The notes beneath the pieces are model-generated. The model saw only the letters and a program-made list of their open reading frames with translations. It was not told the DNA's origin and made no database searches. This document shows positions 35,575 to 50,885 of a stretch of 64,000 bases of DNA, one piece after another. Source of the DNA: Hyunsoonleella pacifica (lineage in GTDB: Bacteria > Bacteroidota > Bacteroidia > Flavobacteriales > Flavobacteriaceae); contig NZ_SIRS01000007.1 in NCBI RefSeq assembly GCF_004310335.1, positions 173,719 through 237,718 of the forward strand. The letters run 5' to 3'. Within the stretch, counting starts at the first letter, position 1. Each line of letters starts with the position of its first letter. The translations under genes and the position numbers were made by a program.

Positions 35575-36870
35575 TCAACGTTTTAAAACATTTCTAAACT
35601 GATAAAACAAGCGTTCTATTAACCGTAAATCCTCGGTAATGATTTCTGCTGAACCAGACATTTCCTGTTTAAAATCAATGTCCTTATTATAAGTAGTGAT
35701 TAGCTTTTTAGGTAATTCCACATCAATAATATAAAAACCTTCTTTATTTGGGATTAGAGATATATTTTTCACAATGCCTTTTAGTACACCAAACTCGGTA
35801 TCTGGGTAATTTTCTAGTTTGATATTAACCGTTTGCCCAACCTTTATCTTTCCTGAGTTTTGCGTTGGTGCTTTCAATTTTGCTATAAATAACGAACTCT
35901 GAGCAGGAATAATAGTAAACACCAAATCGCTTTGGTTTACAGTTTGATTTACATTCCAATAATTTAAAAAGGATACCTTACCATTTATATCAGACCTTAA
36001 CACATATTGGTATTCCCAATCTTTAATGGCTTTCTTTAATTGGTTATAGGATTGTATGACTTGTTTAAGTAATGTCATTTCTTCCTTAACCCGATTGATT
36101 TCTGTACCTCTAGAATTTTTGTGCGCATTACTTAGGTTTTCTTTAATCTGAGAAATAGAGGACTCAAAACTTTGATAGTTTCGTTTTGCTTGGGCATACT
36201 CCAATTGCTTGTTCTCATAAGTCTGCTCTGAAATAATACCTTTTTCAAAAAGTGTTTCGTTGCGTTTTAAATCTTTGGCTTTAAACTCCATTTCAATGGC
36301 ATTTATCTCTTTTTGGGATTGCAGGTTTTTTAATCTCCTATTGAGTTCAGCAATGGAGTACTTATTAGCCAGAGCATCATTAGAAAAGGGCTTAAGTTCT
36401 CTATTTAGTTTATATTGTATATAACTGTTTTCAAAAAGTGCATATGGAGCATCTATATCACCTAAAAATAATACAGGCATGTTATCTAAAGGAAACTGAA
36501 ATGCTTTGGCATCAACAATTAAGGTGTCAATAATGCTCTTTAGGAGAAATACATCCTTGTAATCGGCAGTATTCTCAATAATAGCAAGGGGTTGATTGAC
36601 GTTTACGGTAGCATTATCTTTTACAAGAACAGCAGTAAGCTTTCCTGTAACTCTTGCATATTCTTTTTGCGGTGGTATTTGCGTTGTAACTAAGGCTTCA
36701 GAGGGAATAATGTCGGGATATTTAACCAACCAAAAGATAAGTAACAATAAAAGAATCAAAAGAAAACAGATTGTACTGCCCCAACGTATCACCCAATTAG
36801 GTACTTTAGTAAGGATGTCCTGTACTTCCTCACTGCGCAATTCAATGTTTTTTAAGCTATTATCCGCCAT
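35575..36870 (-). CDS. HlyD-family periplasmic adaptor of the peptide exporter
   Basis: A 431-aa membrane fusion protein. A cytoplasmic N-terminus of ~30 residues and one membrane segment (ICFLLILLLLLIFWLV, ~35-50) are followed by a lipoyl half (ARVTGKLTAVLVKDNATVNVNQPL), a long coiled-coil hairpin (~160-290) and the second lipoyl/beta-barrel part (VSFLNYW, GKIKVGQTVNIKLENYPDTEFG). It bridges an inner-membrane ABC exporter to an outer-membrane TolC-type channel. The gene directly abuts the C39 exporter gene upstream, so the two form a unit. Confidence 0.9.
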   Translation of the reverse strand: MADNSLKNIELRSEEVQDILTKVPNWVIRWGSTICFLLILLLLLIFWLVKYPDIIPSEALVTTQIPPQKEYARVTGKLTAVLVKDNATVNVNQPLAIIENTADYKDVFLLKSIIDTLIVDAKAFQFPLDNMPVLFLGDIDAPYALFENSYIQYKLNRELKPFSNDALANKYSIAELNRRLKNLQSQKEINAIEMEFKAKDLKRNETLFEKGIISEQTYENKQLEYAQAKRNYQSFESSISQIKENLSNAHKNSRGTEINRVKEEMTLLKQVIQSYNQLKKAIKDWEYQYVLRSDINGKVSFLNYWNVNQTVNQSDLVFTIIPAQSSLFIAKLKAPTQNSGKIKVGQTVNIKLENYPDTEFGVLKGIVKNISLIPNKEGFYIIDVELPKKLITTYNKDIDFKQEMSGSAEIITEDLRLIERLFYQFRNVLKR

Positions 36871-39057
36871 TTAATTTCCTAGTTCCAATTGATTCTTTAC
36901 CAAATTATAATACTCTCCTTTTTTCGCAACTAATGCCTTATGATGACCTACCTCGGCAATTTGTCCGTTGTCTATCACGACAATCTGGTCAGCATCTTTT
37001 ACAGTACTTAAACGATGTGCAATAACAACCACGGTTTTATTCTTAAAAAATGTATTTAGCTTTTCCATGATTACCCTTTCGTTATTGGTATCCAGTGCAC
37101 TGGTAGCTTCATCAAAAAATAAAAATTTAGGATTTTTGTATACTGCTCTTGCAATTAAAAGACGTTGCTTTTGTCCAGTACTTAAACCTATACCTTCCAT
37201 ACCTATTTTAGTATTGTAGCTTAAAGGCAGTGATTCAATATAGTCTTTAATATTGGCTATATCTACAGCGTGCGCCAGTTTAGTTTTATCTATAACATCC
37301 TCACCAACGGCAATGTTATTCGCTATAGTGTCGCTAAAAATATAACCCTCTTGCATTACCACACCACATTTCTCTCGCCAATGCTTATGGGAGATGTGTT
37401 TTAGATCGTTCTGACCAATTATAATTTTTCCCTGATTAGGTTCATAAAATTTCAATAATAATTTCATTAAGGTTGTCTTGCCACTTCCACTCACTCCAAC
37501 AATAGCCGTAATCTTATTAGCAGGGATTTCTAGATCAATTTTATTTAGCACTACTTGGTCAGAGCCAGAATACCTAAATGACACATCCATTATATTGAAG
37601 TTGATACCTTTCGGGATTTCATTTATTCTATTGTCAAATTCTTTTTCCTCATCTTCTTTTTGATGTATTTCCGATAAACGCTCTAGAGAAATTTTAGCAT
37701 CTTGAATTTCCTTAATAAAATCTATGAGTTGGACTATAGGAGAATTTAATTGCCCCACTATGTAGCTTATTGCTAACATCATACCCAGGGTAATTTCTCC
37801 ATCAATTACCAATTTAGCAGATAGTATGGTAATTAAAATATTTTTTAATTCGTTAAAAAAGTTAGATCCAACACTTTGGTATTGTTCCAATTTTAGGCCA
37901 TCTATAGAAACCTTAAATAATCTTGCTTGGATATTCTCCCACCCCCAACGTTTTTGTTTTTCAGCATTGTGGAGTTTAATTTCTTGCATGCCACTGATAA
38001 GTTCAATAACCCTGCTTTGTTCTTGGCTTACCTCAGAAAATCGTTTATAATCTAAATTGGCTCGCTTCTTTAGAAAAATACTAATCCATAAGAAATAGAG
38101 AACACTCCCTATAATAAAAACACCAAAAATCTGAAGATTATAATACAGTAGTACTAAACTGAACAAAATCAGATTAAATGTTGAAAAAAGGACACTCAAA
38201 GATGACGTAGTTAATACCTGTTCAATGCGTCTGTGGTCGTTTATACGCTGAAGAATATCCCCAGTCATTCTTGAATCAAAGAATGCTATTGGTAGATTCA
38301 TTAGTTTTATAAAAAAATCAGAAACCAACGAGATATTTATTCGAGTACTCAAATGCAGTAAAATCCAACTTCTAATTACTTCTATTGAAGTTCTTCCGAT
38401 AAAAAGAGCTAATTGTGCAAAAAGAATTAGATAAACAAAGTGAATATCCTGATTCTTTATACCTACATCAACAATACTTTGTGTTAAAAAAGGAAATACC
38501 AGTTGTAAAGCACTAGCTGCTATTAGACCAATTACCAACTGCCAAATAAACTTTTTATACTTCAGAATATATTTAGAAAGAAATAAAAAGCCAAGTTTAT
38601 TATCTTTATCAGTATAACAAATTTCATAAAATGCAGGTGTAGTTTCCAAAAGTAAAACTACTCCTTCTTCTGTTTTATCATTAGCATTATTTCCAATCCA
38701 ACATTTCAAGAACTCCTCTTTTGAGTATTTTAACAAACCATGTGCAGGATCTGAGACATAAAAAACACCTTTTACTATTTTATACAGGACCACAAAATGT
38801 TTTTTATTCCAATGTAAGATACAAGGTAAAGGCGCTACAAGTAATTTTTCTAGTGAAATTTTAACCCCAATAGAACGGAAGCCTAATTGCTCTGAAGCCT
38901 CTGCCAAACCGTGTAAACTAGAACCTAATCGCGTAGTCTCTGTAAGATTACGTAGTTGTTGAAGAGGTATCGTTTTATTATAAAATTTGGCAATAATTTT
39001 TAAGCATGTAGGACCACAGTCTTTTAAATCATATTGTTTGTAATGAGGAAATTTCAT
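36871..39057 (-). CDS. Bacteriocin-type ABC exporter with C39 peptidase domain (PCAT 1)
   Basis: A 728-aa exporter that both cuts and transports double-glycine peptides. The C39 peptidase domain (~1-135) has the catalytic Cys14 (DLKDCGPTCL), oxyanion Gln8, a His in KKHFVVLYK and an Asp in VSDPAHG. Six membrane segments follow (~165-440). The ATPase domain holds Walker A GVSGSGKTTL, signature LSTGQKQRLLIARA, Walker B FLFFDEATSALD and the H-loop AHRLS. All catalytic residues are present. It shares the operon with a second, different PCAT (39174..41336). Confidence 0.95.
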   Translation of the reverse strand: MKFPHYKQYDLKDCGPTCLKIIAKFYNKTIPLQQLRNLTETTRLGSSLHGLAEASEQLGFRSIGVKISLEKLLVAPLPCILHWNKKHFVVLYKIVKGVFYVSDPAHGLLKYSKEEFLKCWIGNNANDKTEEGVVLLLETTPAFYEICYTDKDNKLGFLFLSKYILKYKKFIWQLVIGLIAASALQLVFPFLTQSIVDVGIKNQDIHFVYLILFAQLALFIGRTSIEVIRSWILLHLSTRINISLVSDFFIKLMNLPIAFFDSRMTGDILQRINDHRRIEQVLTTSSLSVLFSTFNLILFSLVLLYYNLQIFGVFIIGSVLYFLWISIFLKKRANLDYKRFSEVSQEQSRVIELISGMQEIKLHNAEKQKRWGWENIQARLFKVSIDGLKLEQYQSVGSNFFNELKNILITILSAKLVIDGEITLGMMLAISYIVGQLNSPIVQLIDFIKEIQDAKISLERLSEIHQKEDEEKEFDNRINEIPKGINFNIMDVSFRYSGSDQVVLNKIDLEIPANKITAIVGVSGSGKTTLMKLLLKFYEPNQGKIIIGQNDLKHISHKHWREKCGVVMQEGYIFSDTIANNIAVGEDVIDKTKLAHAVDIANIKDYIESLPLSYNTKIGMEGIGLSTGQKQRLLIARAVYKNPKFLFFDEATSALDTNNERVIMEKLNTFFKNKTVVVIAHRLSTVKDADQIVVIDNGQIAEVGHHKALVAKKGEYYNLVKNQLELGN

Positions 39058-39098
39058 TCTAGTTAGAATCTAAAAAAGTATCAAATGTAATTTTTTTC

Positions 39099-39161: not shown

Positions 39162-39173
39162 AAGTTATAATTG

Positions 39174-41336
39174 TTAAAGCAATGCAACTACAGGTAATTG
39201 TTGTTGCCATAAATTAAAATAATGTCCTTTTGTTGAATATAATTCATCATGAGACCCCGCCTCCAAAACACTCCCTTTATCTAAGACTACTATCTTATCA
39301 GCATTAATCACGGTACTCAATCTATGGGCAATTATTATGATGGTCTTATTGTTTTTTCTCAAATTATTAATAGTATTTTGAATGAAATTTTCAGATTTAC
39401 TATCTAATGAAGATGTAGCTTCATCCAATACTAATATTTCAGGTTCTTTATAAATGGCTCTGGCAATAGCAATACGTTGTTTTTGTCCTCCAGATAAGGA
39501 TACTCCATTTTCTCCCAAGTAAGTACCAAAGCTATTTGGCAAAGCTTCAATAAACTCTAAGATATTTATGGCTTTACAAATAGCAATAATACGTTCCATA
39601 TTTGGTGAAAATTCTCCAACAGCTATGTTTTCTACTACATTTCCTGCAAACAAATCTATTTTTTGAGGCACAACACTTACTAACTGTCTTAGACTTTCGT
39701 TTTCGATATATTTTAAATCCAAATCGCCTATAGTAATTCGCCCATTTTGTATAGGGTAAATGTTTTGAAGTAAAGACATTAAAGTAGATTTTCCGGAGCC
39801 ACTTTCTCCAACAATGGCTGTTATTTTGCCTTTTGGTACAGTTAAGTTGAAATCTTTAAATACTTCTACCCGCGTACCGTATCTAAACTTAACATTTTTG
39901 AAGCTTATGTTACCTATAGCATCTTTTGTAAGTTTTATTTTGTTATCAGACTCTTCTCGTTCTAAATCCATGATTTCAAATAATCTATCCGCTGCAATCA
40001 ACGCATTTTGTATTTGTTTATTAGCTCCAATTAAACTAGCTACAGGTCCAGTAAAATAACCAACAATAGCATAGAATGACATTAACTCTCCAGCTGTTAT
40101 TTCTCGTTCAATAACGAAGTAAGAACCGCTCCATAATAATATTATGGTAAATAATTGAGCTACTGAGCTTGAACTCGTCCCAGAAAAAACCGAATTTAAA
40201 GCAGACTTGTACCCAATTTGTAATAGGTTAATAAATTTTGTTTCTGTTTTAATATTTGCAAAATCTTCTAATCCGAATCGTTTTATAGTACCAACAGCAT
40301 TAAGAGACTCCACCAATTGGCTCTCTAAATCTGCACTTCTTTCCATAATAGTGCGTTCTGTTTTCTTGTTAAGCTTGTTAATAATAAAATAAATGAGCGC
40401 ATATACTGGGATAACCAATAGCATGATTAATGCTAACTTCCAGTAGTAGAAAAACATTAACCCAAAGGAGAAGCACAAAATGAGTACATTTACCGTAAGA
40501 CTTAGAGATACACCGTTAATAAAAGTGCGTATTTTAACAGCATCATTAATGCGAGAAATAATTTCTCCAACACGCATAGTATCGAAAAACTGTTGTGGTA
40601 ATTTAAATAGGTGTTTATAATAGCCTAAGATTAAACGTGCATCAATTTGCTGACCTGTTTTAATGAGGAAAACATCTTTAAAAGCGCCTATTACTATTTG
40701 TAATGCTAGTAAGGCAATCATTATAATTCCTAATAAATTAAGAAGTCTAGTATTGCCGCCTACCAAAACAAAGTCCGTTAATTTCTGTATGTAAATAGAT
40801 GTAGAAAACCCTAGTAAAGTGTAAACCACTGCACCTATGAAAGCCTGAATTAAAACAAATTTATGAGGTCTTAATAAAAACCAAAACCGTTTATAAATAG
40901 ATACTTTTTCGTTGCCAGTACTAAACGTATCCTTTGGCATTAATAATACTAAAACTCCTGTCCATTCTTTAGTAAATTCCTCATGCGTTTTTTTATGAAA
41001 TTTCCCTGTACCAGGATCCATTACGGTAACATGAGTTTTAGTAACCTCATAAATTACCACATAGTGATGTAAGCGCTCTTTCACTATAATGTGTGCTATA
41101 GCTGGCTTGGGTATTTTAAAAAGGCTTTCTAGCTCGCCACGAACCCCTTTGGATTCAAAGCCTAATTTATCTGCAGCCTCAATAAGACCTAATACATTAG
41201 TACCTTTTTTATCTGTACCTGCGTATTGCCGTATGCGAGCAATAGGGATTTGTAATTTATAATGTGCTGAGATGGATGCCAAACAAGCAGCACCACAGTC
41301 TGTAATATCGTGTTGTTTTATTTTGATGTTTGCCAT
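39174..41336 (-). CDS. Bacteriocin-type ABC exporter with C39 peptidase domain (PCAT 2)
   Basis: A 720-aa protease-exporter. The C39 domain (~1-130) has Cys14 in DITDCGAACL, Gln8, a His in RLHHYVVIYEV and an Asp in VMDPGTG. A six-segment membrane domain follows. The ATPase has Walker A GESGSGKSTL, signature LSGGQKQRIAIARA, Walker B ILVLDEATSSLD and AHRLS. It is clearly distinct in sequence from PCAT 1, so this is not a recent duplicate; the two may form a heterodimer or handle different precursors. Confidence 0.95.
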   Translation of the reverse strand: MANIKIKQHDITDCGAACLASISAHYKLQIPIARIRQYAGTDKKGTNVLGLIEAADKLGFESKGVRGELESLFKIPKPAIAHIIVKERLHHYVVIYEVTKTHVTVMDPGTGKFHKKTHEEFTKEWTGVLVLLMPKDTFSTGNEKVSIYKRFWFLLRPHKFVLIQAFIGAVVYTLLGFSTSIYIQKLTDFVLVGGNTRLLNLLGIIMIALLALQIVIGAFKDVFLIKTGQQIDARLILGYYKHLFKLPQQFFDTMRVGEIISRINDAVKIRTFINGVSLSLTVNVLILCFSFGLMFFYYWKLALIMLLVIPVYALIYFIINKLNKKTERTIMERSADLESQLVESLNAVGTIKRFGLEDFANIKTETKFINLLQIGYKSALNSVFSGTSSSSVAQLFTIILLWSGSYFVIEREITAGELMSFYAIVGYFTGPVASLIGANKQIQNALIAADRLFEIMDLEREESDNKIKLTKDAIGNISFKNVKFRYGTRVEVFKDFNLTVPKGKITAIVGESGSGKSTLMSLLQNIYPIQNGRITIGDLDLKYIENESLRQLVSVVPQKIDLFAGNVVENIAVGEFSPNMERIIAICKAINILEFIEALPNSFGTYLGENGVSLSGGQKQRIAIARAIYKEPEILVLDEATSSLDSKSENFIQNTINNLRKNNKTIIIIAHRLSTVINADKIVVLDKGSVLEAGSHDELYSTKGHYFNLWQQQLPVVALL

Positions 41337-41371
41337 AAATAGGTTTTATTATGGCAATATTAGAGAAGCTT

Positions 41372-41390
41372 ACTGCAAAACGTTTGCAGT
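41372..41390. other. Perfect hairpin upstream of PCAT 2
   Basis: ACTGCAAA and TTTGCAGT pair around a 3-nt loop, between the CPBP gene and PCAT 2. There is no T-tract on the minus strand, so it may be an RNA processing or stability element, or an operator. Confidence 0.45.
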
Positions 41391-41456
41391 TGAAATATTT
41401 ATTAGTAATGGTTTCTATTGGAGGTTAATTTCTTATACTTTTTAAATTATATCTAG

Positions 41457-42140
41457 TTATTGTATTAGCAGCCCCCAACCGAATATGAATGCATTATGGA
41501 TGATATGAAAGCTTATAGCAAATGATATATTATGTCTAAGCCTTATAAAACTTAGATACAGCCCAAAGAAAAACTGTAAAGAGATTAAAATAGGTATGAA
41601 CAAAAAATGAAAAATTTCGTAATAAGAAAAATTAAACGCATGTAAAAAACTAAACATCAATAAGTTAAAATATAAATAGATGTTAAAGTTTTTATTTAAA
41701 AGTGTACTTATTTTTTGACCTACAGTAAAATAACAGATTACGGCAAACACAATCATTAAAAGAACTCTCTCATAAAATGTGGCCTCAAAAATGTTAAGCA
41801 TATGCATATAGATTACTAGTTGTATAGACAGGCTAATAGAAATAGTTAATTTGTTGATTTTTATACTATATCTAAAAGCTAACTCTTCCATAATTGGTGC
41901 AATAAAAACTGTTAGTAAAAAAGCATTAACAACGTTAGTCTCAAGGTCTTTTTTACTCTTAAAGATCATAGCAAACTCATCAAATATTACCGAAAGTATA
42001 CCTACTACTAAAGCCCATAAAAATGTTACAGTCAGATCAAAAATTAAAAATCCCTTTAAAACTGTTATTAATTTCACTTTCTCTCTTTTTATTCTTTTCG
42101 GATTTTTAAGAAAAAGAGAGAGTTCGGATACTAATTTCAT
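41457..42140 (-). CDS. CPBP-family (Abi/CAAX-type) intramembrane protease, candidate immunity protein
   Basis: A 227-aa protein with about seven predicted membrane segments. The family motifs are present: PIMEELAFRY (EExxxR), a FLHAF His motif and HIIHNAF near the C-terminus. Members of this family process prenylated proteins in eukaryotes, and in bacteria often sit in bacteriocin operons as self-immunity or maturation factors. The position between two precursor peptides and two PCATs supports such a role, by inference. Confidence 0.82.
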   Translation of the reverse strand: MKLVSELSLFLKNPKRIKREKVKLITVLKGFLIFDLTVTFLWALVVGILSVIFDEFAMIFKSKKDLETNVVNAFLLTVFIAPIMEELAFRYSIKINKLTISISLSIQLVIYMHMLNIFEATFYERVLLMIVFAVICYFTVGQKISTLLNKNFNIYLYFNLLMFSFLHAFNFSYYEIFHFLFIPILISLQFFFGLYLSFIRLRHNISFAISFHIIHNAFIFGWGLLIQ

Positions 42141-42171
42141 GATTTTCTATTTAAATCAAATGTATTAAAAT

Positions 42172-42192
42172 ACGCCCGTAAATTACGGGCGT
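42172..42192 (-). terminator. Hairpin terminator after the two precursor genes
   Basis: ACGCCCGTAA pairs with TTACGGGCGT around a single base. On the minus strand it is followed by ATTTT. It would lower expression of the CPBP and exporter genes relative to the peptides. Confidence 0.7.
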
Positions 42193-42218
42193 TATTTAAA
42201 TATACTACTATATTAAAG

Positions 42219-42401
42219 CTATTGTTGCGCTTCATGTGTAAGTATGTGAACGGCTGTAACTACTGTGCCGGCTGCTACCCCAACAGCATAGCCAACAGCA
42301 TAGCCCACGTCTTCTGCAAAATCAGTAAACCAACCTCCTCCTTCAATTTCAGTTATTTCTTGTATGTTCATAATTTGAACATCTAATGTTTCTATATTCA
42401 T
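42219..42401 (-). CDS. Double-glycine precursor peptide 2 (bacteriocin-like)
   Basis: A 60-aa peptide with a 22-residue leader ending in EITEIEGG and a 38-residue core starting GWFTDFAEDV. The core contains three spaced glycines (GYAVGYAVGVAAG), which give tandem GxxxG motifs as used in helix pairing by two-peptide bacteriocins, and it has no Cys. The leader acids and hydrophobics match what C39 peptidases recognise. It starts 24 bp after the stop of precursor 1, in one transcript. Activity (antimicrobial or signal) is unknown. Confidence 0.88.
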   Translation of the reverse strand: MNIETLDVQIMNIQEITEIEGGGWFTDFAEDVGYAVGYAVGVAAGTVVTAVHILTHEAQQ

Positions 42402-42425
42402 CTTTTCAATTTTTAAAATTATTAA

Positions 42426-42620
42426 TTAATGATATGTATTTGCATGTGCATCAGTCGCACGATTTGCTCCATCACTAACTCCCTCTATAAAAGCGACAAG
42501 TACTTTGGTGCTTGTTGAAATATACCAAGCAGCTGCATCAGTCAACCAGCTACCACCCTCAGTAGTAGTTAATTCCATTGTATTCATTTCCTTGACATCA
42601 AAACTATGTAAATTTTTCAT
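42426..42620 (-). CDS. Double-glycine precursor peptide 1 (bacteriocin-like)
   Basis: A 64-aa peptide with a 23-residue leader ending in ELTTTEGG and a 41-residue core starting SWLTDAAAWY. The core has a hydrophobic helix (TKVLVAFIEGVSDG, including one GxxxG) and a polar, His-rich tail. There is no Cys, so no disulfide or lanthionine is possible. Leader and core openings (EGG then x-W) resemble precursor 2, so the two are paralogous. It is the first gene after the HTH regulator, preceded by two small tandem hairpins. Confidence 0.88.
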   Translation of the reverse strand: MKNLHSFDVKEMNTMELTTTEGGSWLTDAAAWYISTSTKVLVAFIEGVSDGANRATDAHANTYH

Positions 42621-42663
42621 TTTTTAAAATTTAATTATTAAACATTAATTCAAAAAACAAACA

Positions 42664-42693
42664 AGTTACGTCTAACTTTTACCACGTCTGGTT
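42664..42693 (-). promoter_or_regulatory. Tandem palindromes with identical centre upstream of the precursors
   Basis: GTTACGTCTAAC (42665-42676) and ACCACGTCTGGT (42681-42692) both enclose ACGTCT in short inverted arms, 16 bp apart, in the 92-bp gap between the HTH gene and precursor 1. They could be an operator pair or RNA hairpins with the same loop. Confidence 0.45.
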
Positions 42694-42712
42694 TTGTTTT
42701 TATGCTACTAAT

Positions 42713-43039
42713 TTATGCGGGTTGACTGCATAAACCTTGCAGTAGTGTATTTCTCTTAAAAAAATAAGTGCCTCCAAATAGTTGTAATACCTCGTTATTA
42801 CTTAGTGCTGTTACAGATATACTTATTTGCAACTCATAATCATCGTTATAATAATACGTTTTTATTCTACGGTTATAGGATATAGGGGCACCAAAATCCT
42901 TTAACTCTTCAATTAAATTATACAACAGCCGTTCGCTTATATTCATAAAACGTGCAAGTTCTTTAGGGGTACCTGTATTGGCTTGCTCTATACGCTGGTG
43001 GAGTTGTTGTAAACGCTCTAAGTGTTTTATACTTTTCAT
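42713..43039 (-). CDS. Small HTH transcriptional regulator of the peptide locus
   Basis: A 108-aa protein. An N-terminal winged helix of HTH_11/DeoR type (HLERLQQLHQRIEQANTGTP, then ELARFMNISERLLYNLIEELKDFGAPI) is followed by a beta hairpin (RIKTYYYNDDYELQ). The end (NNEVLQLFGGTYFF) looks like the stub of a WYL-type regulator without its effector domain. I recall such proteins beside GG peptides in Flavobacteria. It is 14 bp after the HlyD gene and directly upstream of the precursors, so local control is likely. Confidence 0.75.
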   Translation of the reverse strand: MKSIKHLERLQQLHQRIEQANTGTPKELARFMNISERLLYNLIEELKDFGAPISYNRRIKTYYYNDDYELQISISVTALSNNEVLQLFGGTYFFKRNTLLQGLCSQPA

Positions 43040-43053
43040 GTTTTGTATTCAGA

Positions 43054-44223
43054 TTAATTGTTTATAGCTACTAATTCGTTTTGGCTTGGGTTTACCCAAT
43101 CATCTACTTTATCGTATAATAAATCGAACAACGTGCGTTCGGTTAATTTAAATTGAGCATTAAGGGTCATGCCTTTTTTTAACTGCCCTTTAAATCCATT
43201 TTTTAAACCTAATTTTTTTTCGTTCAGTTGGCATAATACTTTAAATACTGGCGCATTATTCTTTATTTCAATATCTTCAGCAATATCTATAACGGTTCCT
43301 GTAGCTAAACCCCATTGGTTGTAGTTATAAGCATCTACTTGAAAAGTAACTGTATTATTAAGTTTTATTAAACCAATATCTTTTGGTGCAATAAAACACT
43401 CTACCAGTAATGAAGTGTTAGGGGATATACTTGCTAGCACTTCTCCAGCACTAACCATACTTCCTTTCTCTAGGGGTTTTAAGGTTACTATATTACCAGA
43501 AATAGGAGCTTTAATCACATATTCCAATCTGTTGTCTAGAAGTTGTTTTGTGTTGCTTTCCAACTCAATTACCTTGTTTTTATATTCGGTTAATTGAGAT
43601 TCCCACACACTCATTTGTTGCTGTTTTAATTGGTAAATGCTGTTGTTTATCAAGTCAAAATCTAGGGTAACATTTTCAAATTCTACTTTAGCTATTACAC
43701 CTTTTTTAAAAAGTAATTTATTTCTCTCATAGTCCTTATTTAATTTTTTATGGCGGGTGTATAGCTCCTGTAATTTTTGGGTATACAACAAATATTCTTT
43801 TTTATACTTTGGAGAAGATATCTTTCTGTTTTGAATTTTAGAATCACTAACTAAATATGCTAAATCATCTATTAATATATTGATGTTATCTGTTTGTAGT
43901 TTTAATAAGTTTAGTTTTTCGTTAATAAGAGTATTATCTAAACTAATTAAGGTATCTCCTTTATTGACAAACTGATTACTTTTTAAGTTTACAAAGACGG
44001 CCTTACCTGAATTTATAGAAGTAACGGTTAATCGTTCTTGATCTGGTTTTATTAAACCACGATGCGTACTATAAATATCAACTCTAACAAAGGGAAGCGC
44101 TACTAATACAGCTATTATTGCACATAAAATTGTAGTGTAAATAACTTTACTCTTTTTACTGTGCTTAAATTGATGGGAATGAATACTGGAATTTATAATT
44201 TCTTTTGGAAAAATTTGATGCAT
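43054..44223 (-). CDS. HlyD-family periplasmic adaptor, second copy
   Basis: A 389-aa membrane fusion protein with one N-terminal membrane segment (VIYTTILCAIIAVLVALPFV), a first lipoyl half (HRGLIKPDQERLTVTSINSG), a coiled coil (~90-220) and the second half (YVIKAPISGNIVTLKPLEKGSMV). It starts the minus-strand operon. It differs in sequence from the HlyD at 35575, matching the presence of two exporters. Confidence 0.9.
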   Translation of the reverse strand: MHQIFPKEIINSSIHSHQFKHSKKSKVIYTTILCAIIAVLVALPFVRVDIYSTHRGLIKPDQERLTVTSINSGKAVFVNLKSNQFVNKGDTLISLDNTLINEKLNLLKLQTDNINILIDDLAYLVSDSKIQNRKISSPKYKKEYLLYTQKLQELYTRHKKLNKDYERNKLLFKKGVIAKVEFENVTLDFDLINNSIYQLKQQQMSVWESQLTEYKNKVIELESNTKQLLDNRLEYVIKAPISGNIVTLKPLEKGSMVSAGEVLASISPNTSLLVECFIAPKDIGLIKLNNTVTFQVDAYNYNQWGLATGTVIDIAEDIEIKNNAPVFKVLCQLNEKKLGLKNGFKGQLKKGMTLNAQFKLTERTLFDLLYDKVDDWVNPSQNELVAINN

Positions 44224-44245
44224 TTAAAAAGCTAATTTTAGTGAA

Positions 44246-44271
44246 GCAGGCACAATTTTTGTTGCACCTGC
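44246..44271 (-). other. Hairpin in the leader of the HlyD operon
   Basis: GCAGG and CCTGC pair with a further CAA/TTG inside, 23 bp upstream of the HlyD ATG. There is no T-tract. It may act in attenuation or mRNA stability. Confidence 0.35.
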
Positions 44272-44393
44272 TAATAGACTAATCCAAAATAATTTATGTC
44301 GATATAAATTTTAGGACTGTTCAAAATTGCAATGTACGTAGTAGTTTTGCAAACAAAACACGTCAGCATTTATAAATTTCGGGGCTGAATTTG

Positions 44394-44401
44394 TAAATTT
44401 G
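44394..44401 (+). promoter_or_regulatory. -7 box of the TPR-AraC regulator
   Basis: TAAATTTG lies 18 bp before the ATG at 44420. A second candidate TAGTTTTG is at 44342-44349. Confidence 0.4.
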
Positions 44402-44419
44402 GTCTTACAAAAAAATATT

Positions 44420-46099
44420 ATGAACTTATCCTATAGTTGGTTTTTTGTGTTTTTTATAGTCTCAATTTACAACTCTGCTAATTGTCAAGATTATGAACAG
44501 GATTCATTAAAAAACAAACCTTATAAATACCTAGAAAAGAAATTTTTTAAGCATCAAGATGATTCTAAGGTAGCCTCAATTTATGTTGATGCATGGGTAA
44601 ATAAAGCGAAAGTAGCAAAGGATACTTTTAACCTAGCTAATGCATATTTGTATAAGTCTTATAACTTAGAATATAACGAAGCCATAAAATATTCAGATAG
44701 TATTGTTTTATTGACTAGAGATTATTTAAATGAAAAGTTCCCTGCTCTAGGATATATGATAAGAGGATATCATCATTATTCAATAGGTAAAGATAAAAAG
44801 GCGTTAGATGATTATTTAGTAGCTTATACCTATGCCTTAAAGCGAAATAACGTAAATCAACAAATTGAAATACAACAGTTCATTGGAGGAATGCATTATA
44901 ATTCGGGGAATTATAATGAAGCTATAAAAATTTTCAAAAATCAGTATTCTTATTTTGAAGCTAGACCTAAGTTTAAAATAAAAAATGGAGATGATTATTT
45001 GTTAGTTTTAGATGACTTGTCTAAGTCTTATTTAAGAGGTAAGAAAACCGATTCTGCTCTAATATATACTAATAAAGGAATTAAACTTAGTCTAAATGAT
45101 AATGAAATGTACAGTCGCTTTTTATTAAATAGTGCTATTTCTTTTTATTATAAACAGGAAAATTCCAAAGCTTTGGATAGCTTAAATAAAGTAGAATCAA
45201 TGTTAGACAATACTAGTTTGGCAATTTGTATGTATTATAAAGCTAAAGTTTTTCAAAATAATGACGAACAAAAAACAATTCAATATTTTAAAAAAGTCGA
45301 TTCAATATATAGAAAAAATAATGTTTCTTTTCTTGAATTAAGAGATGTATATAAATCAATGTTTGATTATTATTCTAAAAACGGAACTGAAAAAGAGCAA
45401 TTAAATTCGGTTAACAAATTGATAGAAATAGATAGTATTCTGGATATCGATTTCAAAGACATTAATGATGGGATTATTAAAAATTATGAAGTTCCTAAGC
45501 TTAAAAACGAAAAAGTTAAATTAGAAAAAGAATTAATTAAGTATAAATTAAATAACAAAGGAATAGTATATACAGCGATCATAATAATATTAGTTTTTAC
45601 TTTTTTATTATTAAATTTTTACAGAAAACAGAAACGTTACAAACAGAGATTTAACAAAATTATTAACGAGCAAGAACATAACAATAACACCAATAAAAGT
45701 AAAGCAATTACATTAAATAACAAAAGTAAACATGTAGGAATTTCTGAAGAAGTAATATCAAATATTTTGAGACAATTAGAACTTTTTGAATCTAAAGGTA
45801 ATTTTACAAAAAATGATATTACCTTAAACAAATTGTCAAAAGAATTTAGGACTAACACATCATATTTATCTAAGGTTATAAACTGTTACAAGAAGGAGTC
45901 TTTTTCAAGTTACTTAAGCAATTTGAGAATAGAGTATGCAATAAAAGAATTGAAAAACAATAAAGCTTTTAGAAATTATACAGTAACAGCTATGGCAAAA
46001 GAAATAGGATTCAACAACCCTGAATCATTTTCCAAAGCATTTTATAAAAAAACAGGCATTTACCCTTCCTACTTTATTAAACAACTAAATCAAACATAA
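44420..46099 (+). CDS. TPR - transmembrane - AraC-type HTH regulator
   Basis: A 559-aa one-component regulator. The frame is open from a TTG at 44399, but that overlaps a promoter box, and the ATG at 44420 gives a good N-terminal signal (SWFFVFFIVSIYNSANCQ). A periplasmic region of TPR-like helices (~30-370) is followed by one membrane helix (~381-400; TAIIIILVFTFLLLNFY) and a cytoplasmic AraC-type double HTH at the end (LSKEFRTNTSYLSKVIN, then MAKEIGFNNPESFSKAFYKKTGI). Such proteins sense something outside the inner membrane and act directly on DNA. Divergence from the exporter operon and proximity to a precursor peptide make a role in peptide sensing plausible. Confidence 0.9.
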   Translation: MNLSYSWFFVFFIVSIYNSANCQDYEQDSLKNKPYKYLEKKFFKHQDDSKVASIYVDAWVNKAKVAKDTFNLANAYLYKSYNLEYNEAIKYSDSIVLLTRDYLNEKFPALGYMIRGYHHYSIGKDKKALDDYLVAYTYALKRNNVNQQIEIQQFIGGMHYNSGNYNEAIKIFKNQYSYFEARPKFKIKNGDDYLLVLDDLSKSYLRGKKTDSALIYTNKGIKLSLNDNEMYSRFLLNSAISFYYKQENSKALDSLNKVESMLDNTSLAICMYYKAKVFQNNDEQKTIQYFKKVDSIYRKNNVSFLELRDVYKSMFDYYSKNGTEKEQLNSVNKLIEIDSILDIDFKDINDGIIKNYEVPKLKNEKVKLEKELIKYKLNNKGIVYTAIIIILVFTFLLLNFYRKQKRYKQRFNKIINEQEHNNNTNKSKAITLNNKSKHVGISEEVISNILRQLELFESKGNFTKNDITLNKLSKEFRTNTSYLSKVINCYKKESFSSYLSNLRIEYAIKELKNNKAFRNYTVTAMAKEIGFNNPESFSKAFYKKTGIYPSYFIKQLNQT

Positions 46100-46213
46100 A
46101 TATTACTTAAAAAGTTCTCTAAATTTATAAATTAAGAGATCAACATGAAATAGATACTAATAATCATAAGATTTTTGATGTAAGTTTGAGTATTAATCAT
46201 AATCTTTATAAAA

Positions 46214-46357
46214 ATGAAAAAAGACAAAAAACAAAACGTCAAAAATTTAGAAACTTTTTCTAAATTCAAACTAAACAATACTAACTTAGTATATGGAGGA
46301 GTTGGGAAAGACGACGACATTGATAGGAAGAAATTAAAAATACCAGGAAATAAATGA
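46214..46357 (+). CDS. 47-aa GG-leader precursor peptide with short charged core
   Basis: An ORF starting at ATG 46214. The leader of 29 residues contains NLETFSKFKLNNTNLVYGG, close to the Bacteroidota natural-product leader pattern in which an L..F..FKL..... stretch precedes GG. The predicted core is VGKDDDIDRKKLKIPGNK, short, highly charged and without Cys, Ser or Thr, so lanthionine formation is not possible. Such a core fits a signal peptide better than a pore-former. It lies between the TPR-AraC regulator and two protease genes and is followed by a strong hairpin. Confidence 0.78.
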   Translation: MKKDKKQNVKNLETFSKFKLNNTNLVYGGVGKDDDIDRKKLKIPGNK

Positions 46358-46387
46358 TAGAATTAATTAAAATTGCATAATAATATC

Positions 46388-46422
46388 ATATCCCTTAAAG
46401 ATAGAAGATCTCTTTAAGGGAT
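46388..46422 (+). terminator. Strong hairpin between precursor and protease genes
   Basis: A 13-bp perfect stem (TATCCCTTAAAGA and its complement at 46410-46422) with a 9-nt loop is followed by AT-rich sequence without a clean T-run. It is probably a partial terminator or a 3' stabiliser of the peptide mRNA. Confidence 0.6.
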
Positions 46423-46439
46423 AAAATTATTTTAACAAT

Positions 46440-48632
46440 ATGAAAAAACTGTTGATTACATTAAGTCTACTTTCCATAGTAGGCTGTATTAAAAAAAACA
46501 ACTTTTATAAGAATTACCCTTCTCCAAAAATCAGGAAAGAGCCTACTTTTGAAAAATATTTTAGTACTACTGTAAATGACAGTTATAGGAATTTAGAAGA
46601 CATTAAGGACTCCTTGGTTGATAATTGGTACAGAAGTCAGAACATTTTTGCTAAAACAATTTTAGATAATATTGAAGGAAGAGATGATTTGGCTAGAGAA
46701 TTATATAAAGTAAGCAATAGAAAATCTTTTAAAACAAAAAGGATTAATGTCACTTCAAACAGTAAATATTTTTTCCTGAAAAAGGAAGCAGACGAAAGTT
46801 ACTACAAACTTTATTACAAGGAAAATTCACTATCTGATGCAGTTATTTTATTAGATCCAAAAAAACTAAACATTAATAACAGGAATGATTATGTCATTAA
46901 TTACATTAAACCTAGTTGGAATGGTAAGTATGTAGCGGTGTCACTTACTTATTCAGGAAGAGACTTGTCTGATTTAGTAGTGTTAGATGTTACTAATAAA
47001 AAATTACTACCACAAATTTTGATTAATGCTTGGCCCACTAGTTTTTTAGGAATTAATTGGTTGCCTGACAACTCTGGTTTCACTTACTTAAGATTTCAAG
47101 ATACTGATATAACAAAACCAAAATTTAAACAAAATTCCCAATCCGTTTTACACTTATTGAAAGATAAAAATGGAAAAGTTGATTATATTTTTGGAAATAA
47201 AACGCATTCAAAATTAAATATTTCGGAAACTATTTATCCTACTACTAAAATTCATTCAGAGAAAGATAAATATATTATAGGTTACCTTTCAGAGGTAGAT
47301 AATTACTGGAAAGCATATTATGCTAATATTGTAGACATAAAATCTGGAAACTATAATTGGAAACCTTTGTATGGTAAAAAAGATAAAGTTTTAACCCAAA
47401 AAGGATATTTTATTGATGATAAATTCATTTTTTTATCAGCTAAAGATGCAGACAACAAAAAAATAATGTCGGTAAATACTTCTGAACTAAATTTTGACGA
47501 GGCAATCACTTTAGTAAATGAAAAACCAGAAGAAGTTATTGATGATTTTGAAATAACTAAAGATGCCATTTTTTATTCAACTCTAAAATATGGTGTGGAT
47601 GCCAATTTATACAGATTAGTTGATGGAAAAGAAGAAAAATTAAAAACTCCCAAAAAAGCAGGTAGAATAAGTTTAAGTAATAAGTCTCCTTATTCTAGCG
47701 ATTTGTGGGTAGCTATCGAGGGATGGACAAGTCCATACATTGAATATTTTTATAATATTAAATCTAATACATTTTCAAAACATAATCTATCTTCAAATAT
47801 AGAATATCCTGAATTCAATAATATAATTGCAGAAGAGGTGCTTATAAAAGCCCATGATGGAGAAGAAATTCCTCTATCGATTATTAGAAATATAGATTTT
47901 AATAAAAACCATAATGCTCCTGTTTTCTTGTATAGTTATGGAGCTTATGGAGATATCGAAAGTCCATATTTTTCAAGTTTAATGTTAAGTTTTGTCAAAA
48001 GGGGAGGTATTTATGCTATTGCTCATGTTAGAGGAGGAGGAGAAAAAGGTGATAAATGGCATAAAGGAGGATACAAGTCTACTAAGTCTAATTCATGGAA
48101 AGACTTGATTTCCTGTTCTGAATACCTTGTAGAAGAAAAATTAACAACCAAGGATAAAATTACACTATATGGAGCAAGTGCTGGAGGTATAACTGTTGGA
48201 AGAGCCATGATCGAACGTCCAGACCTTTTCAAAGTTGTTATTTCTCAATATGGTTATTTAAATCCTTTTAGAGGTGAGGTTATAGGCTCTGCAGGCACTA
48301 ATTCTGAAGAGTTTGGATCTGCAAAAGATTCTTTGGAATGTTTGTCTTTAATTAAAATGGATCCATATTTAAATCTTAAAAAAAATGTGGATTATCCCGC
48401 AGTCTATTTAACTACAGGCATGAACGATCCTCAAGTTCAGCCTTGGATGTCAGGAAAATTTGTTGCTAAATTACAAAGTAATAATAAACTCAAAAATCCT
48501 GTTTTATTGTTAGCAGATTATGAAACTGGACATGGTGATAATCCAGATGAGCTCAAGGTATATAAAGATTGGGCAAACATCTTTTCTTTTATTTTTTGGC
48601 AAACAGGGCACCCTGACTATCAATTAAAATAA
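46440..48632 (+). CDS. Prolyl oligopeptidase family (S9) lipoprotein
   Basis: A 730-aa serine peptidase. The lipoprotein signal ends at Cys16 (SIVGC). An N-terminal seven-bladed propeller region (~60-430) is followed by an alpha/beta hydrolase domain with catalytic Ser580 (YGASAGG), Asp663 (TGMNDPQV) and His698 (ETGHGDN). S9A enzymes cleave after proline in short peptides; the propeller excludes folded proteins. Its placement after a precursor whose core has a single Pro (KIPGNK) allows a role in trimming or degrading that peptide, which is inference. It should be anchored to the outer or inner membrane facing the periplasm or surface. Confidence 0.92.
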   Translation: MKKLLITLSLLSIVGCIKKNNFYKNYPSPKIRKEPTFEKYFSTTVNDSYRNLEDIKDSLVDNWYRSQNIFAKTILDNIEGRDDLARELYKVSNRKSFKTKRINVTSNSKYFFLKKEADESYYKLYYKENSLSDAVILLDPKKLNINNRNDYVINYIKPSWNGKYVAVSLTYSGRDLSDLVVLDVTNKKLLPQILINAWPTSFLGINWLPDNSGFTYLRFQDTDITKPKFKQNSQSVLHLLKDKNGKVDYIFGNKTHSKLNISETIYPTTKIHSEKDKYIIGYLSEVDNYWKAYYANIVDIKSGNYNWKPLYGKKDKVLTQKGYFIDDKFIFLSAKDADNKKIMSVNTSELNFDEAITLVNEKPEEVIDDFEITKDAIFYSTLKYGVDANLYRLVDGKEEKLKTPKKAGRISLSNKSPYSSDLWVAIEGWTSPYIEYFYNIKSNTFSKHNLSSNIEYPEFNNIIAEEVLIKAHDGEEIPLSIIRNIDFNKNHNAPVFLYSYGAYGDIESPYFSSLMLSFVKRGGIYAIAHVRGGGEKGDKWHKGGYKSTKSNSWKDLISCSEYLVEEKLTTKDKITLYGASAGGITVGRAMIERPDLFKVVISQYGYLNPFRGEVIGSAGTNSEEFGSAKDSLECLSLIKMDPYLNLKKNVDYPAVYLTTGMNDPQVQPWMSGKFVAKLQSNNKLKNPVLLLADYETGHGDNPDELKVYKDWANIFSFIFWQTGHPDYQLK

Positions 48633-48728
48633 TTTGCTTTTGGATAGGCTACATATCTGGTAGAAAACGTAAAGAAATATAAAAAAAGGCAAAAACAGAG
48701 AGATTAGGTTCATAAATACCATTTATAA

Positions 48729-50393
48729 ATGATCACCCGCTTTCTTATGAAATTTATTAGAATTTATTTTCTTTCAGTTATTACAATACTCCTTTTTCAG
48801 TGTACCAAGAAAAAGGAGTATCCTCAGATAAAAAAAATAGAAAACCCTTTGGTTTTTAGTGATACGTTATTTGACAAAAAAACTTGGTTTAAGAAAGATA
48901 TTATTGAAGACTCAATTCCTGGTATAAGTTTAGACAAAGCAAAAAAACTATTAAAAAACAAAAAGCACCAAAAGGTAATTGTTGCTATTATTGATGGTAC
49001 AGTCGATATCGAACACAAGGATTTGAAGGATCATATTTGGAAAAATTTTGATGAAATTGCCAACAATGGATTGGATGATGACCACAATGGCTATGTTGAT
49101 GACATTAATGGTTGGGATTTTCTAGGAAGCAATGATAGTATCGATCATAAGTATTTACACTACAGTTATACTAGATATGTAAAAAAGTATGACAGCCTTT
49201 ATAAGGGAAAAACCCTTAGTGATCTAGATCCAAAAGATTCGCTAGGTTTCATAACATATCAACATGCAAAATACAGATTAAACCAGAAATTAAAATCTGT
49301 ACCAGAAGAAAAACAATATGCAGAGAATGTTAAGAAATGGAAAGGTAAAGCCAAATCAAAAATTATTATGTCTCTCGGATATGATGATGATTTTAATTTT
49401 ACATTAAAAAAATTAGATAGTATTAAATCAAGTATAGTTAGGGATAGTATTTTGCTAGAAAATATACAGATTCTGTCTGGATTTATAGAACATGGCTATA
49501 CAGATGAGTATATTGAGCATTTAAATGTAAAGGCAAGAATACTAATAAATAAACAACTAAATATTGTTTATGATGAGCGAGCGTTTCTGGGCGATAATCC
49601 CAGTAATATCAATGATATTGGTTATGGGTCAAACCGAGTAAATAGTAATCTGGGTATATATTCTCATGGTACAAAGGTTGCTGGCCTTGTTGTAAAAGAA
49701 AGCACTGAGATTAAAATTATGCCTTTAGCCATATCTGGTCATGGATCGAATCATGATAAGGATATAGCTTTAGCGATTCGTTACGCGGTAGACCAAGGAG
49801 CAAAAGTTATCAATATGAGTTTTGGTAAGGAATTTTCAGTATATAAACATATGGTCGACGAAGCCTTTTTATATGCACAACAAAATAATGTATTGTTAGT
49901 AAGTTCTACAGGTAATGATTATTATGATGTAGACAATCCTAAAAATATTAAATACCCCACAGACTTGGACGCAAGTAGAAGGATTGAATTTGTAAATAAT
50001 TTTATATCAGTAGGTGGCTCTACTTGTTATGCAAACGAAGATTTGAATTTCGAAGATAGTAATTATGGTAAGAAGAATGTAGATATTTTTGCACCTGCAG
50101 ATAAAATTTATACTATGTATCCTAACGATGAATATAGATTCGATAGTGGCACTTCACTTGCCTCTGCTCTAACATCAAAAGTGGCTGCTTTACTATTTTC
50201 TTATTACCCCAATCTAACTGCCCCTCAAGTCAAACAAATCATCATGGATAGTGGCGTGGAATATACGTTTTCTGTAAAGATGCCTACCGTAGAAAACGAG
50301 AACAGAACTACACCCTTCAATCAACTCTCAAAATCTGGTAAAATTGTAAATGCTTACAATGCTTTAATTATGGCGGACAGTATTTCTAAATAA
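48729..50393 (+). CDS. Subtilisin-like (S8) serine protease lipoprotein
   Basis: A 554-aa S8 protease. Catalytic residues are Asp89 (IIDGTVDIEH), His313 (SHGTKVAGL) and Ser476 (DSGTSLAS), with Asn in SSTGNDY. About 220 residues lie between Asp and His, a long insert typical of Bacteroidota subtilases with NGLDDDHNGYVDDINGWDF. The signal peptide is lipoprotein-like with Cys at 25 (LLFQC); starting at the second Met (48747) would give a more usual signal length. It lies 97 bp after the S9 gene. Peptide processing or surface proteolysis is likely. Confidence 0.92.
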   Translation: MITRFLMKFIRIYFLSVITILLFQCTKKKEYPQIKKIENPLVFSDTLFDKKTWFKKDIIEDSIPGISLDKAKKLLKNKKHQKVIVAIIDGTVDIEHKDLKDHIWKNFDEIANNGLDDDHNGYVDDINGWDFLGSNDSIDHKYLHYSYTRYVKKYDSLYKGKTLSDLDPKDSLGFITYQHAKYRLNQKLKSVPEEKQYAENVKKWKGKAKSKIIMSLGYDDDFNFTLKKLDSIKSSIVRDSILLENIQILSGFIEHGYTDEYIEHLNVKARILINKQLNIVYDERAFLGDNPSNINDIGYGSNRVNSNLGIYSHGTKVAGLVVKESTEIKIMPLAISGHGSNHDKDIALAIRYAVDQGAKVINMSFGKEFSVYKHMVDEAFLYAQQNNVLLVSSTGNDYYDVDNPKNIKYPTDLDASRRIEFVNNFISVGGSTCYANEDLNFEDSNYGKKNVDIFAPADKIYTMYPNDEYRFDSGTSLASALTSKVAALLFSYYPNLTAPQVKQIIMDSGVEYTFSVKMPTVENENRTTPFNQLSKSGKIVNAYNALIMADSISK

Positions 50394-50875: not shown

Positions 50876-50885
50876 ATTTTATTCG

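Follow-up and report, generated by a model that had tools for sequence, protein, structure and literature searches.

A conserved receptor-peptide-protease-exporter cassette around a bacteriocin-like module in Hyunsoonleella pacifica, with a putative peptide pheromone

We analysed 64,000 nucleotides of Hyunsoonleella pacifica (NZ_SIRS01000007.1, 173,719-237,718), hereafter the window, in whose own numbering all positions are given. Between 35575 and 50393, the window carries two C39 peptidase-ABC exporters, three genes for peptides with a double-glycine (GG) leader, two proteases and a regulator of the AraC type. A first-pass annotation had read the divergent halves of this region as one system. 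The locus instead consists of two separable, nested modules, joined in several genomes, rather than of a single ten-family system. Module 2 holds the regulator and the peptide pepC, a candidate pheromone precursor, whereas module 1 appears bacteriocin-like. The S8, AraC, HTH, S9, ABC2 and ABC1 proteins were searched in 149 relatives, and up to 20 kb was annotated around chosen matches. The window genome is G000; L numbers denote annotated loci and G numbers denote genomes.

Results

Gene content of module 2

As judged from sequence, module 2 appears to comprise a regulator with tetratricopeptide repeats (TPR), a transmembrane (TM) segment and an AraC domain, followed by pepC, S9 and S8 (44420-50393, plus strand), together with the far exporter ABC2-HlyD2 (35575-39057). 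Its features are as follows.

35575-36870, minus strand: HlyD2, membrane-fusion adaptor (PF13437), which directly adjoins ABC2-type exporters in relatives
36871-39057, minus strand: ABC2, C39 peptidase-ABC exporter (PF03412, PF00664, PF00005), motifs intact
44368-44398: tandem operator-like sites ATTTATAAAT and ATTTGTAAAT (44368/44389), 21 bp apart, in the AraC-HlyD1 divergent promoter
44420-46099, plus strand: TPR-TM-AraC regulator (PF12833, HTH_18 at the C-terminus)
46116-46139: palindrome TCTCTAAATTTATAAATTAAGAGA, presumed AraC-family operator of pepC
46214-46357, plus strand: pepC, GG-leader peptide with the core VGKDDDIDRKKLKIPGNK, predicted pheromone precursor
46378-46434: stem-loop between pepC and S9 (inverted repeat I3), with a putative regulatory role
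46440-48632, plus strand: S9A prolyl-oligopeptidase-family lipoprotein (PF00326, PF02897; GASAGG, NDPQV and TGHG motifs)
48729-50393, plus strand: S8 subtilase lipoprotein (PF00082; IDG, SHGT and GTSLA motifs)

All the genes named by the first-pass annotation were found in their places between 35575 and 50393. Both C39 exporters retain their catalytic residues (PF03412, E 2e-33 and 4e-37; DCGxxC, His and Asp-Pro motifs kept), and both the S9 and the S8 protease have intact catalytic motifs and lipobox-like N-termini. The adjacent GG precursors pepB and pepA on the minus strand, the third precursor pepC on the plus strand, the small HTH_11 protein, the CPBP-like membrane protein and the TPR-TM-AraC regulator are likewise present. 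The exporters ABC1 and ABC2 are 34% identical, and the adaptors HlyD1 and HlyD2 are indeed different, with 25% identity over their best stretch; neither pair is therefore a recent duplication.

For the regulator, an ATG start at 44420 is more likely than the listed TTG at 44399. The pepC gene begins 114 bp after it, and the stem-loop that follows pepC is a possible partial terminator, which would favour the peptide over the protease. The best relatives of S9 in the PDB were prolyl endopeptidases; the peptide cyclase PCY1 and OphP, both of which we take to be maturation enzymes of ribosomally synthesized and post-translationally modified peptides (RiPPs), were also among the matches. Some enzymes of the prolyl oligopeptidase (POP) family are peptide cyclases that join their substrates head to tail. 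At a guess, S9 might cleave after the proline of the core, or might join the peptide head to tail. S8 was a poor tracer of the module, with matches in 100 of the 149 genomes, mostly to a paralogue of about 40% identity.

Association of module 2 with ABC2 and not with ABC1

If the first-pass annotation were right, the plus-strand genes should travel with the minus-strand exporters. This held for the farther exporter, ABC2-HlyD2, and mostly failed for the nearer one, ABC1. The AraC-peptide-S9/S8 set was contiguous with ABC2-HlyD2 in five loci (L043, L227, L229, L040 and L041, with a broken S8 in L041) and lay near it in four others (L045, L228, L230, L239). The order AraC-peptide-S9-ABC2-HlyD2 was found in a single run in L043, L227 and L229, the order ABC2-HlyD2-AraC-peptide-S9 in L230 and L239, and a convergent arrangement in L228. 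The contiguous exporters of L043, L040 and L041 were 63-73% identical to ABC2. Given this contiguity in other genomes, we ruled out that the plus-strand genes are merely an unrelated neighbour of the exporters.

Among the 149 relatives, ABC2-type exporters (at least 58% identity) occurred in 30 places, window included, 11 of which were within 10 kb of a TPR-AraC gene; of the remainder, several have VKOR-type oxidoreductases or grasp-with-spasm enzymes, along with other GG peptides, as neighbours. ABC1-type exporters (E up to 1e-170) occurred in 10 other places in the same genomes, and only that of G061 was near a TPR-AraC gene, at about 11 kb.

Each module was also found by itself. Module 1 (HlyD1, ABC1, HTH_11 and GG peptides) occurred without a TPR-AraC gene in the stretch in L061, L063, L064 and L067, and module 2 without module 1 in L043, L227-L230 and L239, standing alone and contiguous in L043, L227 and L229. 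The full divergent composite, in which HTH_11, HlyD1 and ABC1 are transcribed away from the AraC operon, was observed in 3 of the 79 AraC-anchored named loci: Flavivirga jejuensis (L112), a Bacteroidia metagenome-assembled genome (L119) and Aquimarina aggregata (L137). Some HTH_11-like gene was present in 8 of the 79. The complete composite is also present in G061 (L040, L080). An 18-kb contig of F. jejuensis terminates with HlyD2-ABC2 (L191), and L112 starts at a contig end with ABC1, so that the gene order may be the same as in the window. Co-localisation of the two modules exceeds the expectation from gene density; because the samples are biased (anchored on AraC and rich in Aquimarina), no p value is given for it.

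That pepA, pepB and pepC are all made, exported, sensed and trimmed together by one 15-kb system would account for the recurrence of the composite in L112, L119, L137 and G061, and for the AraC-type tandem sites in the promoter region common to AraC and HlyD1. It is nevertheless improbable, since each module occurs without the other and has an exporter and adaptor of its own. The sequence of making, export, sensing and trimming proposed by the first-pass annotation suits module 2 by itself, and not all 15 kb.

The pepC family and its link to LanB

To describe the peptides associated with TPR-AraC genes, we used a model built from 13 peptides (that of the window and 12 from another locus set) on 76 non-duplicate AraC-anchored named loci. 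The model matched 53 peptides in the 600-bp zones downstream of TPR-AraC genes versus 8 elsewhere (about 970 versus 3 per Mb). Because family matches concentrate in these zones, pepC is not a chance open reading frame (ORF). A scored peptide was present downstream of 45 of the 91 AraC genes, and nine further loci have a peptide that was sub-threshold or recognised by eye (L163, L167, L176, L112, L118, L146, L168, L171, L187).

The leaders of the family share the consensus KKLxLxKxxIxKLxxxxxIxGG and match the LxLxKx5L-GG type, which Walker et al. (2020) describe in Bacteroidetes for the LanA precursors of class I, with a split LanB (lanthipeptide dehydratase) as in pinensin (available text of PMC7268733). 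A split LanB (Lant_dehydr_N plus Lant_dehydr_C) was found in 14 places in the 149 genomes, and in 10 of them a related TPR-AraC gene was no more than about 3.2 kb away; LanB was present in 36 of the 44 genomes behind the named loci. Having a peptide beside AraC was associated with having LanB in the genome (Fisher test on the 44 genomes, 30/2/6/6, p = 0.003; 33/2/3/6, p = 0.0003, when three by-eye peptides missed by the model were included), although the genomes are related and kinship is ignored in both tests. One exception was Aquimarina agarilytica (L179), a LanB-free genome whose peptide has an LxLxK-like leader.

Several other peptide arrangements were observed. In Aquimarina loci L177, L178, L157 and L160, two or three peptides with repeated TKT or related motifs in their cores follow the AraC genes; these stretches have neither exporter nor LanB, and the searched genomes (L157, L177, L178) hold LanB. 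In L050, four tandem GG peptides (14528-15544) precede a grasp-with-spasm pair, and next to these stands a set of AraC, peptide and S8 with split LanB. The ABC2-type exporters of L084, L085, L086, L087 and L089 are flanked by several Cys-rich GG peptides and by a protein that has a C39-VKOR-thioredoxin fusion as its relative in L094; the five loci are candidate disulfide-peptide clusters.

The window-type subfamily

Twelve loci, hereafter U, carry a peptide of the window's type: the window itself, L112, L118, L043, L045, L227, L228, L229, L230, L231, L239 and L240. Their cores include VGKDDDIDRKKLKIPGNK in the window, ...QADKKKVKIPSNG... in L118, ...IIDKNKKKTPGRS in L112, ...IIDKDKIRTPKRR in L043, ...GPIDRDKIRTSERR in L227, ...GPIDRDKIKIPIRR in L229, ...GPIDTDKIRRPGRKRKN in L230 and ...VIDRDKVRRPKPGKK in L239. 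A charged core motif, loosely [DR][KRT]x[KN], was found in 11 of the 12 and was followed by a proline in 10; Cys was absent from all 12. The LxLxK motif was present in none of the 12 U leaders versus 45 of the 53 other AraC-adjacent peptides, a comparison biased by the LxLxK-rich model with which the 53 were found. The core of pepC has no Ser, Thr or Cys, and its leader keeps the GG and lacks LxLxK.

A pattern drawn by eye from the cores matched 11 of the 9063 short ORFs in the sequences analysed, namely the window peptide, its copy in L037, 8 other U peptides and one stray, and missed the U peptides of L043, L227 and L231. When a model of five U peptides was run on 397 Flavobacteriaceae genomes, the five best new members (G224, G257, G434, G485, G389; E 6e-12 to 4e-6) all lay between a TPR-AraC gene and an S9 or S8 gene. 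Matches at E up to 0.05 were obtained in 23 of the 397 genomes, which is about the chance level (about 20 expected), so that the first few alone are significant. Some other weak matches were LanB-type peptides beside TPR-AraC (L232, L233, L236, L238), and five weak-match stretches had no AraC gene (L234, L235, L237, L241, L242).

LanB (PF04738) had no match in the window genome G000, nor anywhere in the genome in 8 of the 12 U genomes (G000, G001, G149, G224, G257, G434, G485, G370). With no LanB in the genome and no Ser, Thr or Cys in the core, module 2 was ruled out as a lanthipeptide cluster. An S9 gene stood beside the peptide in 10 of the 12 U loci and an S8 gene in 3 (window, L118, L231), with both in the window and L118; ABC2-HlyD2 lay within the stretch in 8 of the 12. 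In a tree of 50 selected AraC rows, 11 of the 12 U receptors and all 11 chosen peptide-less ones formed one supported clade (99/96), apart from the LanB-linked rows. The tree was midpoint rooted, and the order of origin of the receptor types is therefore not read from it.

These observations bear on two other explanations of pepC. It might be a decayed lanthipeptide precursor, kept by linkage only after the loss of LanB, as the LanB-free genome and the lack of Ser, Thr and Cys in the core and of LxLxK in the leader would allow. We consider this very improbable, as the core motif is found in several genera, the U receptors and the peptide-less ones form a clade of their own, and the exporter and proteases are intact. 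Alternatively, pepC could be an antimicrobial, a LanB-free relative of lanthipeptide-type precursors, with AraC as a pathway-specific regulator only, sensing some other cue such as envelope stress, and with module 1 as a second bacteriocin. Its LanB-linked relatives do resemble RiPP clusters and have the same kind of leader and exporter, its proximity to module 1 would suit a bacteriocin island, and toxins such as the bacteroidetocins occur among the GG peptides of Bacteroidetes (available text of PMC6671954). However, the short core is hydrophilic, carries many charges and lacks any hydrophobic stretch, and its motif recurs across several genera; no immunity gene was recognised beside pepC, although this was not tested systematically; and 53 of the 61 scored peptides of the AraC-anchored loci lie just downstream of AraC. 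On balance, we regard an antimicrobial role as rather unlikely.

Predicted structure of the receptor

An AlphaFold2 (AF2) model of the receptor, obtained with 45 sequences, had a predicted local distance difference test (pLDDT) score of 88.7. In this model, a signal-peptide region is followed by a predicted TPR superhelix (residues 35-321), a continuous helix (324-424) and a C-terminal AraC helix-turn-helix (HTH); a hydrophobic, predicted transmembrane segment, read from hydropathy, lies at about 382-400, inside the long helix. The TPR part was matched to peptide-bound Rap and NprR structures with Z scores of 20.0-22.2 and a root-mean-square deviation (rmsd) of 4.4-6.0 over 287-314 residues (Foldseek, VIA-align), including Rap-phi3T with pheromones, NprR-NprX, and both RapF and RapJ in complex with peptides. 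In the sequence profile of the receptor, Rap proteins were among many other TPR proteins matched. The modelled TPR fold thus fits peptide binding. Tandem arrays of TPR-AraC genes were observed elsewhere, with seven genes in Leptobacterium flavescens (L049, 4537-16679) and five in L149 (9974-18920); no peptide gene was scored beside either array.

Operator-like palindromes

The palindromic sites of the locus belong to a recurrent class. The TTTATAAA pattern was found in 22 of the 47 AraC-to-peptide gaps (window included), whereas dinucleotide shuffles predict 2.5; of the 45 regions that follow an AraC gene but have no scored peptide, 8 contain it versus 1.65 expected. With one mismatch allowed, the palindromes reach 24-28 bp, as for TATCGTGATATTTATAAATATCACGATA in Kordia (L165). 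In 111 regions upstream of AraC genes, we counted paired sites with at most one mismatch to ATTTATAAAT. They were spaced by 21 bp in 16 regions and by 22 bp in 10, whereas any other spacing from 12 to 45 bp was observed in at most one region, and about 0.02 was obtained per spacing after a two-base block shuffle. The whole window contains 10 matches to ATTTRTAAAT, counting both strands, versus 3.6 expected; a further palindrome-type site (48721-48730) overlaps the S8 start. A sigma-70 promoter scan found 78 promoters versus 84 expected, which is the shuffle level and is not informative for Bacteroidetes. A second operator-like class, consisting of TTCCTGAAAACAGAC / CTGAATTCAGG repeats in place of ATTTATAAAT, was seen in the AraC-peptide gaps of L126, L129, L132, L137, L151 and L152.

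Module 1

From its gene content, module 1 (39174-44223, minus strand) appears to be a bacteriocin-like export set with the following genes.

39174-41336, minus strand: ABC1, C39 peptidase-ABC exporter (PF03412; TIGR01193, 540 bits versus a cut-off of 524)
41457-42140, minus strand: CPBP-like membrane protein, possible immunity protein (NF052640, 37.8 bits, below the cut-off of 220)
42219-42401, minus strand: pepB, GG-leader peptide with a 38-amino-acid (aa), Cys-free core and GxxxG repeats (GYAVGYAVG)
42426-42620, minus strand: pepA, GG-leader peptide with a 41-aa, Cys-free core and one GxxxG (GVSDG)
42713-43039, minus strand: small HTH_11 regulator (PF08279, 26.6 bits, cut-off 25)
43054-44223, minus strand: HlyD1, module 1 adaptor (PF13437)

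L061, L063, L064 and L080 have copies of ABC1 (75-82% identical) that adjoin HTH_11 and HlyD1 genes or lie close to them. HlyD1-type genes adjoin ABC1-type and HTH_11 genes in L061, L063, L064 and L067, although HlyD1 is not one full ORF in L061 and L067. HTH_11 relatives occurred in 18 of the 148 other relatives' genomes, in two of which (G061, G037) they were within 5 kb of a TPR-AraC gene. An inverted repeat lies near HlyD1 at 44245-44272; none was seen when the regions upstream of HlyD1 in the module-1-only loci were checked by eye.

The pepA and pepB peptides probably belong to ABC1. No family was found when the small peptides were scanned against NCBIfam; pepB matched PF10439 (Bacteriocin_IIc) weakly (17.3 bits, cut-off 27.1) and pepA had no family match, while leaders resembling that of pepA were found in L061 and L065. 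The CPBP-like protein had no Pfam match and was assigned from the sub-threshold NCBIfam match and from EExxxR, FxxxH and HxxxN, which we take to be CPBP motifs, judged by eye. L103 holds a related gene (31%). The protein is a possible immunity protein of the module.

Class IIb two-peptide bacteriocins are defined by paired GG peptides with GxxxG motifs. In module 1, the GG peptides pepA and pepB likewise lie side by side, both have GxxxG, and a CPBP-type gene stands next to them; by this analogy they resemble two-peptide bacteriocins. Small GG peptides and a C39 exporter are also features of bacteroidetocins, which, in the available text of PMC6671954, have Cys in the mature peptide and a thiol oxidoreductase gene in most regions. 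Neither pepA nor pepB has Cys, and both were ruled out as bacteroidetocins; moreover, module 1 adds an HlyD adaptor and HTH_11, and family scans of the locus proteins matched no thiol oxidoreductase family.

Genomic setting

The locus is bordered by two landmarks that lie outside the system.

35257-35409, plus strand: conserved 50-aa ORF at the left boundary of the hot spot
50885-50959, minus strand: tRNA-Arg(acg) at the right boundary of the hot spot

The landmarks nearly abut in two congeneric genomes, with about 250 bp between them in G007 (L245) and about 50 bp in G009 (L248); G002 and G003 carry other cargo between them, of about 14.9 and 7.6 kb. The cargo thus differs among three genomes, window included, and ranges from 7.6 to 15.5 kb. 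The two landmarks were not both found in the fetched stretches of G001, G004, G005 and G008. Because they nearly abut in some genomes and enclose other cargo in others, the 35.5-50.4 kb region is most likely an accessory island inserted in a hot spot between the 50-aa ORF and tRNA-Arg. An exact 17-bp copy of the tRNA-Arg 3' end is present at 50775-50791, 110 bp off on the island side, and looks like an old attachment scar.

Discussion

We propose, with a probability of about 0.55, that pepC is an unmodified, exported and protease-trimmed peptide pheromone sensed by the membrane-tethered AraC regulator. The peptide would be made with a GG leader, which ABC2 would cut while exporting the core VGKDDDIDRKKLKIPGNK together with HlyD2. 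The POP-type S9 lipoprotein, at the surface or in the periplasm, would then trim the core, most simply after the proline, the Pro-ended form being VGKDDDIDRKKLKIP; S8 would perhaps share in the trimming. The trimmed peptide is predicted to bind the periplasmic TPR superhelix of the tethered regulator, whose cytoplasmic HTH would act on the palindromic ATTTATAAAT operators before pepC-S9-S8 and, via the 21-bp tandem, on its own promoter, giving an autoinducing loop. As AraC and HlyD1 have this promoter in common, module 1 may be driven by the signal as well.

Several observations weigh against this proposal. With a core of about 18 aa, the peptide is large for passive entry into the periplasm, which makes its return route a difficulty for the model. 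The TPR superhelix is generic, and a shared fold does not mean a shared ligand; in the structural search, both LGN/Pins, with Z up to 23.6 and an rmsd of mostly 6-8, and APPBP2, a degron receptor (Z 23.4, rmsd 4.1), scored higher than Rap and NprR. No scored peptide was found downstream of 46 of the 91 related AraC genes. Among the U loci, the ATTTATAAAT palindrome precedes the peptide in 5 of the 12 only, with none in L112, L118, L228, L230, L231 and L239 and a variant in L240. Ser or Thr (0-4 residues) occur in 10 of the 12 U cores, all except those of the window and L228. Four U genomes hold LanB or a fragment of it (G004, where it adjoins another AraC gene, G160, G465, and G389, with a 34-bit fragment). 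L231 lacks the core motif and its receptor falls outside the U clade, on a long branch; L045 has neither S9 nor S8 nearby; ABC2 is missing from the vicinity of the Kordia loci L118 and L240; and L239 and L240 are weak matches (E 0.018 and 0.027), accepted on context and core.

We put forward only tentatively, and with clearly less confidence than the pheromone role itself, a wider reading in which module 2 would represent an undescribed family of Gram-negative peptide quorum sensing. In it, a dedicated prolyl oligopeptidase would cut an unmodified, C39-exported peptide after its proline and might also join it head to tail; the product would be read by a one-component transmembrane TPR-AraC, which would here switch on a bacteriocin module; the family would form a sister branch of receptor-peptide pairs with LanB-substrate-like peptides and have a copy in Kordia algicida.

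Peptide pheromones are well known in Firmicutes, and we know of none that has been established in Bacteroidetes. In the ComC/ComAB systems of streptococci, a C39 ABC exporter with an accessory protein cuts and exports a GG pheromone, which is sensed at the membrane. Module 2 similarly links a C39 exporter with intact catalytic residues to a GG peptide, but has a one-component TPR-TM-AraC instead of a histidine kinase pair and adds POP and subtilase lipoproteins. In the RRNPP systems of Firmicutes (Rap-Phr, NprR-NprX, PlcR-PapR), a peptide gene also stands beside a TPR receptor that controls transcription, and the modelled TPR part of module 2 superposes on Rap and NprR, although other TPR proteins match equally well or better. 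According to the available text of PMC10075063, a survey that analysed Firmicutes only, RRNPP peptides are trimmed by exported proteases, as proposed here, and are imported to intracellular receptors. The module 2 receptor has instead a predicted signal peptide and TM helix; its HTH is of the AraC type, its exporter is a C39 ABC protein with HlyD, and the host is a Gram-negative member of the Flavobacteriaceae. The class I lanthipeptide clusters of Bacteroidetes (pinensin type; available text of PMC7268733) share the GG leader, the C39 exporter and a related TPR-AraC near split LanB. They differ in that the window genome has no LanB, the leader motif is lost and the core has no Ser, Thr or Cys. 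No system of this design appeared in searches of open-licence literature or in the available text of PMC7268733, PMC6671954, PMC10352776, PMC3117869, PMC10565126, PMC6363468 and PMC10075063.

Overall, the locus is a conserved receptor-peptide-protease-exporter cassette around a bacteriocin-like module; it is real and goes beyond a composite export locus. The cassette offers a small and concrete candidate, in which the peptide (about 15-18 residues), the receptor and the operator are all specified, and it links lanthipeptide-type peptides and signalling within one receptor family (111 receptor genes). K. algicida, which has one AraC-peptide-S9 cassette like that of the window (L240) and another of the other type (L145), releases proteases in a density-dependent manner, and earlier with its own cell-free filtrate, while acyl-homoserine lactones were not detected (available text of PMC3117869). 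We suggest, as a suggestion only, that its signal is possibly a cassette peptide. Against this stands a later study, from 2023, which reports that fresh medium failed to restore algicidal activity and implicates nutrient starvation (available text of PMC10565126). As K. algicida holds both types of cassette, the question of its signal is open to direct test.

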